Program-made: the position numbers and the translations under genes
Shown here: piece after piece, positions 8,301-20,789 of the stretch
How positions within the stretch are numbered: position 1 is the first letter of the stretch
Layout: the number at the start of each line of letters is the position of its first letter
Notes under the pieces: model-generated
Database searches by the model: none
Seen by the model: the letters and a program-made list of their open reading frames with translations, nothing else
Told to the model about the DNA's origin: nothing
Origin: a virus
Virus record (IMG/VR): IMGVR_UViG_3300036814_000983
Span: 1-20,789 of that record
DNA: 20,789 nt
Strand: one strand, 5' to 3'

Positions 8301-9641
8301 ATGAAAGTTGGAAGCTTATTCAGTGGAGTTGGAGGCTTTGACCTGGGCCTCGAGCGATCTGGACATGAGATCGTATGGCAGGTTGAGTATGACAAACAGG
8401 CCAGGAGTATTCTTAGGAAGCACTGGCCTGATGTCAAAATTTATAATGATGTTCAACAAGTAGGAGGTAAAGATGGAGAAGCAGGAAGAGATGTTCTTGA
8501 AGAAGTCGATCTCATCTGTGGTGGGTTCCCGTGTCAAGATCTATCAGTTGCGGGACACCGTAGAGGATTGGATGGTTCAAAATCGGGGCTTTGGTACGAA
8601 TTTCATCGCATTCTTGAAGAGTGCCGTCCCAAGTACTGTCTGGTCGAAAATGTCCCTGGTCTATTCTCCTCCAACAAAGGACGGGACATGGAAGTTCTCG
8701 TCAGGGGGTTGGAAGAACTGGGCTACCAGTGGCAATACAGAATACTTGACTCTCAACATTTCGGAGTCCCCCAACGTAGGCGTAGAGTCTTCATTGTCGG
8801 ATATCTTGGAGACGGATGTCAATCCCAAGTATTACTTGAGTCCGAAAGCCTGCCGTGGCATCCTGCGCAGAGCAGAGAAGAGGGGCAAAACTCTGCCGGA
8901 GATGCTGGATGTAGTGATGAGGAAGGTGGCAGAACGCTGTACAGAGGAGAAGGCTTCTCATCGTACAGAGAAGACGACTTAGCCGCACCCTTGAGAGCAA
9001 GCCAGTCCAAGCAAGCTGATACGGACCTGGTCGTGGCCAGATGCACTGGCTATGCCAAGTACAAGATGGAAGATGAGATGAAGGCGAGTAGCCCACTACG
9101 AGCTCGACACAATGAGGCTACCGATCTAGTCGTGCCACGTATCTTCCAGCAGAACACCAGAGATGAGGTAAGGTACATGAATGGTGATGGGCAACTGGCT
9201 GGAGCATTGCCAGCCCAGCCTGGGTCAAAGCAACAGAACTACATTGCTTTCCAACCTGGGAACCTGACAAGAAAGGCTGGGGCTAACCCAAGCACTGAGG
9301 TATTCCCCACACTTGGGGCTGCCACGCTTGGAGATCAGGCACCCCATGTAGCTACACATCAGCAGGTAGCACCGACTCTCAACTCCAGTGGTGCGGGAAC
9401 GTCGAGACCTGGGGGACAAGGAGCAGAACCTGGCTTCTATATCTCGAGTAATGCACCACGGAGATTAACGCCTCGAGAATGCGAGAGGTTACAAGGATTT
9501 CCGGATGACTGGACGAGGTGGACAGACACTGGACAAGAGATGGCGGATGGCCCACGCTATCGCATGATGGGCAATGCAGTCACAGTGAATGTGGCTGAGT
9601 TCATCGGAGCACAACTGAAGAGTGTTATCCCATTGTACTAA
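8301..9641 (+). CDS. DNA (cytosine-5) methyltransferase
   Basis: It transfers a methyl group from S-adenosylmethionine to C5 of cytosine in a specific DNA sequence, probably shielding phage DNA from host restriction. All key motifs are present in 446 residues: I (SLFSGVGGFDLGL, 5-17), IV with the catalytic Cys78 (GGFPCQDLS), VI (ENV, Glu116), VIII (QRRRRVFIVG, 158-167), IX (RLTPRECERLQGFPDDW, about 391-407) and X (RMMGNAVTVNVAEFIG, about 422-437). The variable region between VIII and IX is long, about 220 residues, and holds two similar blocks (APLRASQSKQADTDLVV and SPLRARHNEATDLVV) plus PTLxxx segments, seen in other phage enzymes. No restriction endonuclease lies beside it. A +1-frame ORF lies entirely within it. 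Confidence 0.95.
   Translation: MKVGSLFSGVGGFDLGLERSGHEIVWQVEYDKQARSILRKHWPDVKIYNDVQQVGGKDGEAGRDVLEEVDLICGGFPCQDLSVAGHRRGLDGSKSGLWYEFHRILEECRPKYCLVENVPGLFSSNKGRDMEVLVRGLEELGYQWQYRILDSQHFGVPQRRRRVFIVGYLGDGCQSQVLLESESLPWHPAQSREEGQNSAGDAGCSDEEGGRTLYRGEGFSSYREDDLAAPLRASQSKQADTDLVVARCTGYAKYKMEDEMKASSPLRARHNEATDLVVPRIFQQNTRDEVRYMNGDGQLAGALPAQPGSKQQNYIAFQPGNLTRKAGANPSTEVFPTLGAATLGDQAPHVATHQQVAPTLNSSGAGTSRPGGQGAEPGFYISSNAPRRLTPRECERLQGFPDDWTRWTDTGQEMADGPRYRMMGNAVTVNVAEFIGAQLKSVIPLY
8473..8982 (+). CDS. Candidate overlapping gene in +1 frame of the methyltransferase, 169 aa
   Basis: A 169-codon frame lies wholly inside the methyltransferase gene, shifted by +1. AGGAGGT at 8462-8468 sits 4 bases before ATG 8473, a near-ideal ribosome binding site. 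The product's second half (LTLNISESPNVG, SSLSDILETDVNPKYYLSP, KACRGILRRAEKRGKTLPEM in order) looks like a real protein, and I recall the pattern LSDILET..P..YxLSxKACxGILRRAxxRGKxLP from phage hypothetical proteins. The encoding DNA is methyltransferase motif VIII and the start of its variable region. Either both frames are expressed, or the database pattern arose from predictions over conserved methyltransferase DNA. Function unknown; the C-terminal half is basic and helical. Confidence 0.4.
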   Translation: MEKQEEMFLKKSISSVVGSRVKIYQLRDTVEDWMVQNRGFGTNFIAFLKSAVPSTVWSKMSLVYSPPTKDGTWKFSSGGWKNWATSGNTEYLTLNISESPNVGVESSLSDILETDVNPKYYLSPKACRGILRRAEKRGKTLPEMLDVVMRKVAERCTEEKASHRTEKTT

Positions 9642-19508: not shown

Positions 19509-20350
19509 GATACCTCCACAGTTGTGGGACGTTCAGGTTTGAATAATATCTTCTTCATATTATAATCATCATCGTCATCAATTTCAAACCAAACAAGTCC
19601 AATATCTGCGAGACTCTCTGCAACTCGGTGTACATATTCCGTTGCAAGCTGCCATGCTGGTAGTGCAACCAATCGTGTTTTTACCTTATGTATTCTTCCA
19701 CTGTCTGCGAACTGATGGAAGTGACTGCGGATTGCTATGTCAGGTGGATCTTCTCCATCCATCATGTAATTAAAAAAGATATCCTGTGCGTACCAACGCA
19801 TGTATGGGCCTTTGGTATGAGCTCTTCTGCCCATTCGGCCATGGTGCTTTATGTCAAATCTAAGGTTACCAAACTTAATCATTCTCTGATAGGATGATGT
19901 CGTTCCAGTATCGGGATCTTCTATGACATTCCATCGTTGAGCTTTCAACGCCTTGGCCATACCCTCTTCAAGTCCACCTGCCCTGCCAACGTGAGCGGGA
20001 GTTCCTCTGGTGATGTGTATGCTGTCAGGCTTGAGTGCCAACGGAACCCTTAAAGTTTCCAGCGCGCAGTTAACATGCTGACCTTCGCCAGAGCTGAAAA
20101 TTTGAGTCGTCCGGTGATGATCCCCATCAACAGCATCTCCATTACAGACTAGGTGTAGCTTGGCGTCTCTGTTCTTTCGCTTCACCGATTTGATCTTATC
20201 CCAAGATTCTTCCCAGTTATCCCACAGCCATTCCTGGCCTCTGCTAGGCATGTACAGTCCACCATCATCAAGCTCGACACCTTCGGGTGGGCACAATCCT
20301 ACCGTGGAACCACAGTGTAAGTCTCCAAAGCATACGACAATATGTTTCAT
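19505..20350 (-). CDS. Calcineurin-like metallophosphoesterase
   Basis: Metallophosphoesterases hydrolyse phosphoesters with two metal ions. The 281 residues show the family's motifs in order: GDLHCG (Asp10, His12), [11 protein letters not shown] (Asp72), RGTPAH in place of the usual GNHD/E, IKHHG, and SHFHQF as the final H-x-H. Two adjacent His pairs (DHH, KHH) suggest it is active. The replacement of Asn by Thr-Pro in the third motif is a point to check. Substrate unknown; phage relatives may act on nucleotides or RNA. ATG 20350 overlaps the methyltransferase stop by 4 bases; the ribosome binding site is GGGAGGAA. Confidence 0.8.
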
Positions 20351-20789
20351 TGATCTTCCCTCCTAGTGCCAATGTCATTCAGCATCTTTACTACTGTTAA
20401 ACCCACGGCATAACCCAAATTTACAGGTACTGCGTTACCTATCTGTTTATAAATATTATTTTTAGACCCATAAAATTCCCAATCATCTGGAAAAGTTTGA
20501 ATTCGAGCATATTCTCGGCAGGTTAATGGGCGAGTTTCACTTGGATGACACCGCTCTGTTTGTCCCTGTGCAGGAGAGCATACAAGAGTTAGACTTGGTT
20601 CGTCCCAAGATAAGCGTCTTGCAATACCCGTTTTTCCTCCTCCCAAATAATAACTTCCCTTCATGTATTCTCGCTGAAGTTCATCTGGTAAATCTCTCCA
20701 GTATCCGCCCTCAGGAACCTGTGCCATAATCTCTCGTTTTCTATCACGGTAGATTTGACCGCTAGAATGTGGGGTGTCTTCCTTGAAGA
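20347..20789 (-). CDS. DNA (cytosine-5) methyltransferase, second; C-terminal part only
   Basis: The frame stays open to the right window edge, and the 20 codons before the first in-view ATG ([20 protein letters not shown]) continue the protein, so ATG 20727 is not the start. The visible 146 residues carry the family's C-terminal signature: a target-recognition end ([37 protein letters not shown]), motif IX ([20 protein letters not shown]) and motif X ([17 protein letters not shown]). Motifs I to VIII must lie outside. The sequence is clearly different from the methyltransferase at 8301, being closer to stand-alone restriction-modification enzymes, so the phage has two. It heads the operon, as far as seen. 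Confidence 0.9.

Follow-up and report, generated by a model that had tools for sequence, protein, structure and literature searches.

A nested reading frame in a phage methyltransferase gene

The window, by which we mean the whole 20,789-nucleotide stretch of viral DNA that was analysed, carries a gene for a C5 cytosine methyltransferase and, nested within this gene in the +1 frame, a second open reading frame (ORF). The features of the locus are given below, with the evidence for each in brackets.

8301..9641, plus strand: C5 cytosine methyltransferase, frame 0, 446 aa, motifs I-X (PF00145)
8462..8468, plus strand: internal Shine-Dalgarno sequence AGGAGGT of the +1 ORF (sequence; position enriched in relatives)
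8473..8982, plus strand: +1-frame ORF P0001, 169 aa, proposed nested second subunit (open-frame and selection tests; phrog_16143)
8473..8787, plus strand: N-terminal part of the +1 protein, residues 1-105, probably a disordered leader (pLDDT, dNN/dNS)
8760..8792, plus strand: motif VIII FGVPQRRRRVF, frame 0 (sequence)
8791..8931, plus strand: conserved core of the +1 protein, residues 107-153, SLSDILE..KYYLSPKACRGILRRAEKRGKTLP.., a displaced methyltransferase element plus a helical hairpin (conservation, pLDDT, dNN/dNS, hhalign)
9459..9512, plus strand: motif IX RRLTPRECERLQGFPDDW, frame 0 (sequence, alignment)
9558..9593, plus strand: motif X YRMMGNAVTVNV, frame 0 (sequence, alignment)

The frame-0 protein matches PF00145 over its whole length (residues 1-440, E 7.9e-73), and its translation and alignment give the motif order IV (PCQ), VI (ENV), VIII (PQRRRR), IX and X. 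The +1 ORF starts with the ATG at 8473 and stops at 8980-8982; the AGGAGGT ends four bases 5′ of the ATG. A preliminary description of this DNA had reported the Shine-Dalgarno sequence, the start codon and a frame of 169 codons, and its coordinates and peptides are exact. It had also stated that motif VIII and the beginning of the variable region are encoded by the same DNA in the other frame. This is borne out, as SLSDILE of the +1 peptide lies at 8791-8811 and its nucleotides overlap those of frame-0 motif VIII.

In the window the parts of the enzyme are spread over two ORFs. The post-motif-VIII element LxDxLE..KYYLS, which elsewhere stands in frame, does not occur in frame 0 of the window and is found in the +1 ORF. 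An in-frame copy of this element is a trait of the canonical phage subtype, not of PF00145 as a whole. The phrog_16143 profile matches P0001 (E 3.9e-12) and 65 of 90 relatives; the label of this record is DNA methyltransferase, with no mention of an overlap or of a subunit role. Pfam and NCBIfam returned scattered weak matches only for the +1 proteins (PF00145 in 1 of 90), and these were not recognised as methyltransferases. Neither the +1 profile nor the core by itself found anything informative in sequence searches of the PDB. At the edge of the window (20347-20727, minus strand) there is also a translation that looks like the C-terminus of another C5 methyltransferase, with motifs IX-X.

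Conservation of the +1 frame

Relatives were gathered from viral contigs with a DNA pattern that covers only motif VIII (FGVPQRRRRVF) and selects nothing downstream in the +1 frame. A few chance matches in the genome scan that lacked the methyltransferase domain (L272, L321, L336 and L337) were excluded. The preliminary description had named stops in the +1 frame of relatives as a check, and these turn out to be rare. In 91 of the 108 usable genes the frame is open over 142 codons, 85 upstream and 57 downstream of motif VIII, where 4.0 such genes are expected when synonymous codons are permuted within each gene. The median frame length in the same genes is 165 codons for +1 and 30 codons for +2. 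This openness is far beyond chance.

A further check that had been proposed, an internal ribosome binding site next to an intact +1 frame, gives a similar answer. A Shine-Dalgarno sequence (5-mer) with a start codon lies at -84 to -100 codons from motif VIII in 52 of 109 genes, about three times the 16.7 expected. There is no such enrichment in the neighbouring intervals and none in the canonical enzymes. A recognisable Shine-Dalgarno sequence is present at the expected start in only about half of the genes, which counts against the explanation that we favour.

Selection was analysed in 69 independent pairs with a mean nucleotide identity of 81%, each difference being classed by its effect in both frames. 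The ratio dNN/dNS compares changes that alter both proteins with changes that alter frame 0 only; values below 1 indicate that the +1 protein is protected. It is 1.05 (0.97-1.14) in the control region upstream of the overlap and 1.05 (1.00-1.10) downstream. Along the overlap it runs 0.91, 0.64, 0.93 and then 0.47 (0.42-0.52), the last value belonging to codons 15-54 after the start of motif VIII, i.e. the core. In this stretch frame 0 is relaxed (dNN/dSN 0.85) whereas +1 is constrained, and the identity of the +1 protein is 0.724 against 0.615 for frame 0. The +1 protein is the better conserved of the two in 53 of the 63 informative pairs (53 against 10). The N-terminal part of the +1 protein is only weakly constrained (0.91, then 0.64), and the first half of this protein is mainly kept free of stops.

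The remaining check, on synonymous constraint, does not refute a second coding frame either: third-position variation in frame 0 is 0.21-0.37 in the overlap, lower than the 0.50-0.57 found in the rest of the gene. Together with the dNN/dNS and identity figures for the core, this indicates that the +1 core is selected as protein. Judged by these sequence comparisons, both frames are coding and +1 is a real, conserved coding frame.

Identity of the +1 core

As a control set we used canonical phage C5 methyltransferases, chosen by another motif VIII pattern (YGIPQNRERVF). They belong to the same family as the window enzyme and have the same element at the equivalent place, but here the element is in frame and +1 is closed. 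Most of them carry the sequence LKDxLEDEVDEKYYLS in frame, some dozens of residues downstream of motif VIII, and 96 of the 97 have a closed +1 frame. The sole exception (L395) has no in-frame element and carries CSLSDILETEVDQKYFLSEK in +1, which matches the in-frame element of a canonical enzyme with E 4e-8. When the whole +1 profile is compared with the canonical profile, hhalign pairs the same element stretch with E 1e-4 and a probability of only 57%; these E-values are approximate, as the alignments are shallow. The columns L108, L112, L122, A126, G129, I130, R133, P142 and L145 of the +1 core are invariant. The +1 protein also has a basic helical hairpin, which is absent from the canonical enzymes.

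The two locations of the element are mutually exclusive. None of the 109 relatives selected by motif VIII has the element in the frame-0 tail, and none of the 206 genes of both sets has it in both frames. Part of this exclusivity reflects shared ancestry, since the sets were chosen by differing types of motif VIII. On the other hand, Streptococcus phage MM1, pneumococcal phage SpSL1, L395, L367 and L382 have a motif of the NRER or HRER type yet show the +1 arrangement. Short nested elements without the helical hairpin were seen in NRER/HRER-type enzymes at L367, L382, L395, L006 and L517. L367 and L382 fall with the canonical in-frame enzymes on a tree, a hint that nesting may have arisen a second time or at an older date.

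These results bear on the main proposal of the preliminary description, that the enzyme is overprinted by a second conserved protein, widespread and overlooked. The open frame, the enriched start and the selection agree with it. It calls for one correction, as this protein is related to the enzyme. The core corresponds to a recognition-domain element that ordinary C5 methyltransferases have in their own frame, which points to a nested second subunit rather than a foreign overprinted gene. We had entertained a +1 protein unrelated to the enzyme, and dropped this idea after seeing relatives with in-frame, split and single-chain layouts.

Split and fused relatives

In a group of Firmicutes prophages (L248, L258, L277, L285, L300, L332 and L353) frame 0 stops soon after motif VIII, and +1 continues for about 450-540 codons, which cover the recognition region as well as motifs IX and X. 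The layout of L269 is split in a similar way. From their sequences we read these split loci as alpha/beta enzymes, with beta starting inside alpha. Motif IX, or IX-X, is found on a second polypeptide in these Firmicutes split loci only, and not in the window.

The reverse arrangement also exists. At L255 motifs I-VIII, the core and motifs IX-X form one continuous natural chain. In a tree of motifs I-VIII its genomic copy, L388, lies on a long branch inside the main +1 clade, so that L255 looks like a secondary fusion.

In the AlphaFold2 model of the +1 protein of the window, residues 1-105 have low confidence (pLDDT 45-69) and are probably disordered, and the helical hairpin of residues 108-165 reaches a pLDDT of about 87-98; for the conserved core, residues 107-153, the values are 90-98. 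In the single chain of L255 the core has a pLDDT of about 88-95, and the model matches M.HhaI with Z 28.6 and an rmsd of 2.8 over 267 residues. The first 100 or so residues of the +1 protein exceed what a minimal subunit needs, and this counts against our preferred explanation. The best fold match of the +1 model in the PDB (Z 4.7 over 39 residues) is a common helical arrangement and was not used.

Proposed mechanism and alternatives

We consider it likely that the window encodes a nested two-polypeptide C5 methyltransferase, the +1 product being a second subunit that supplies the displaced start of the recognition domain. One message with two ribosome binding sites would give two chains from the same DNA. 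The long frame would yield a catalytic chain with motifs I-X that lacks the post-motif-VIII element. A small +1 chain, started from its own ribosome binding site some 90 codons upstream of motif VIII, would supply this element and the added basic helical hairpin. The two chains would then assemble into an active enzyme, in which the recognition/hinge region is completed in trans by the +1 protein. We infer that the +1 product is synthesised, that it binds the catalytic chain and that it is needed for methylation. Such phage enzymes probably consist of two parts, which annotation would largely have overlooked. With somewhat less assurance, we lean towards a broader claim. A large family of C5 methyltransferases, spread over phages and prophages from many phyla with P1 and the pneumococcal phages among them, is annotated as one gene but may form obligate heterodimers from two overlapping frames. 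The recognition/hinge region would be completed by the nested subunit, and exchanges of the recognition region would leave the overlap in place.

A different reading is that the overprinted protein has a separate function, e.g. as a methyltransferase regulator, an anti-restriction factor or a DNA-binding protein, and that its likeness to the enzyme is a remnant of its origin. We think this unlikely. It would agree with the selection of +1 as protein, with a basic helical hairpin that canonical enzymes lack and with the short, standalone-looking +1 ORFs with new N-termini (L287, L007 and L090), but these short ORFs also lie inside methyltransferase loci. Furthermore, in the loci read the core is always accompanied by a C5 methyltransferase and never by an in-frame copy of itself, and in the split and single-chain loci it is joined in frame to motifs IX-X.

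Two further explanations do without an independent +1 protein. Programmed frameshifting, in which ribosomes pass from frame 0 to +1 near motif VIII and make one fused chain with no separate +1 start, might be suggested by the split loci, where the catalytic and C-terminal parts are in different frames. It is very improbable. We reject it because motif VIII (8760-8792) and the start of the core (8791-8811) have nucleotides in common; after a forward shift, motif VIII, the usual linker and the whole element could not all be retained. In addition, the +1 frame is open for about 90 codons upstream and its internal Shine-Dalgarno sequence and start are enriched. We give almost no weight to the idea that +1 is untranslated and that its conservation is a by-product of frame-0 conservation or of signals at the DNA level. 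Frame 0 does show strong conservation around motifs IV-VIII (identity 0.83-0.94), which accounts for much of the N-terminal +1 sequence. This does not extend to the core, where frame 0 is relaxed (0.85) and +1 constrained (0.47, with controls at 1.05) and where third-position variation contradicts the idea too. Nor would a by-product leave 91 frames open where permutation gives 4, or keep +1 going in the split loci where frame 0 has stopped.

Comparison with known systems

M.EcoHK31I (YGGCCR) resembles the proposal for the window in being a C5 methyltransferase of two polypeptides, and the small one is read from another frame inside the gene of the large one. There the small polypeptide provides motif IX and the large one motifs I-VIII and X and the recognition domain, whereas in the window motif IX is on the frame-0 chain and the nested protein consists of the post-motif-VIII element and the helical hairpin. 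M.AquI is split in the variable region into I-VIII and IX-X, the same division as in the Firmicutes loci L258, L277, L300 and others. The window differs in that its catalytic chain retains motifs IX-X and in that the second ORF lies wholly inside the first. Both M.AquI and M.EcoHK31I are established as C5 methyltransferases of two polypeptides, and fragments of M.SssI split in the variable region complement each other, some only when they overlap (PMC3404938).

A closer parallel is ORF13/ORF14 of Streptococcus phage MM1, which has the same nested layout with the +1 element SLSDILEEEVDERYFLS. Unlike in the window, the element is short in MM1 and lacks the KACxGILRRAxxRGK hairpin. NC_003050 lists ORF14 as a DNA methyltransferase, and DQ113772 names it the beta subunit of a C5 methyltransferase; we found no paper on the MM1 overlap or its selection. 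Another case is the pneumococcal phage SpSL1, whose m5C methylome has been measured and whose m5C enzyme is reported to methylate 102 of 113 sites of the phage genome (PMC6755750). Its cds15 has the nested layout, with CSLSDILEENVPEEFFLS in +1 and no in-frame element. Hence a functional enzyme is made, in the native context, from at least one gene of the nested type. This activity speaks for the enzyme working, not for the +1 product being required.

The kind of enzyme, C5 methyltransferases of two polypeptides, the subunit label on the overlapping ORF of MM1 and phrog_16143 are already known. Among open PMC papers we found no description of the overlap or of the peptide; the widespread overlap, its selection and the identity of the core with the in-frame element are without an open paper that we could find.

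Distribution and significance

A tblastn search with the single +1 sequence of the window matched 157 of 50,697 phage records, and 510 plasmids that are mostly P1-like. Of 5,426 complete E. coli genomes, 488 cover at least 80% of the +1 region of P1. The stretch of the window enzyme from motif I to VIII matched 1,651 phage records. By this count, which is insensitive and gives a lower bound, the overprinted type appears to be a minority. Among the matches listed, from viral and genome pattern scans, record titles name Bacillota, Pseudomonadota, Acidobacteriota, Planctomycetota, Bacteroidota and others. Few of the matches listed have a separate annotation for the +1 ORF, the MM1 records being a clear exception.

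Long same-strand overlaps with protein selection on both frames have rarely been demonstrated in phages. As the nesting is widespread and relatives with a single-frame layout exist, the system is a natural experiment on the origin of nested genes. There would also be practical consequences if the +1 product is a required subunit. Many phage methyltransferases cloned in recoded or codon-optimised form would look inactive for a trivial reason, and predicted methylomes as well as assignments of anti-restriction roles would have to be revised.

Nine P1-like copies were read. Both frames stay open among them, also in L514 and L515, which have an exchanged recognition region; L513 is a frameshifted pseudogene. 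When L514 and L515 are compared with L005 (P1-like), or L003 with the window, the recognition region is exchanged or extended right after the KACxGILRRA core, with both frames open. From these alignments the point after the core looks like a recombination joint for swapping specificity.

Some relatives are rearranged in other ways. In L007 (Mycobacterium phage Thibault, about 1350-2680) and L090 frame 0 is unbroken and has about 200-250 extra codons between motif VIII and the region of the +1 core; in Thibault this stretch crosses an annotated HNH endonuclease gene. It may be an insertion, an intron-like element or another overprinted gene. Finally, the second half of the core is in frame 0 at L222, and at L303 motifs I-VI are in the frame of the core, not in that of motif VIII; these changes of frame may be natural re-joining, decay or sequencing error.
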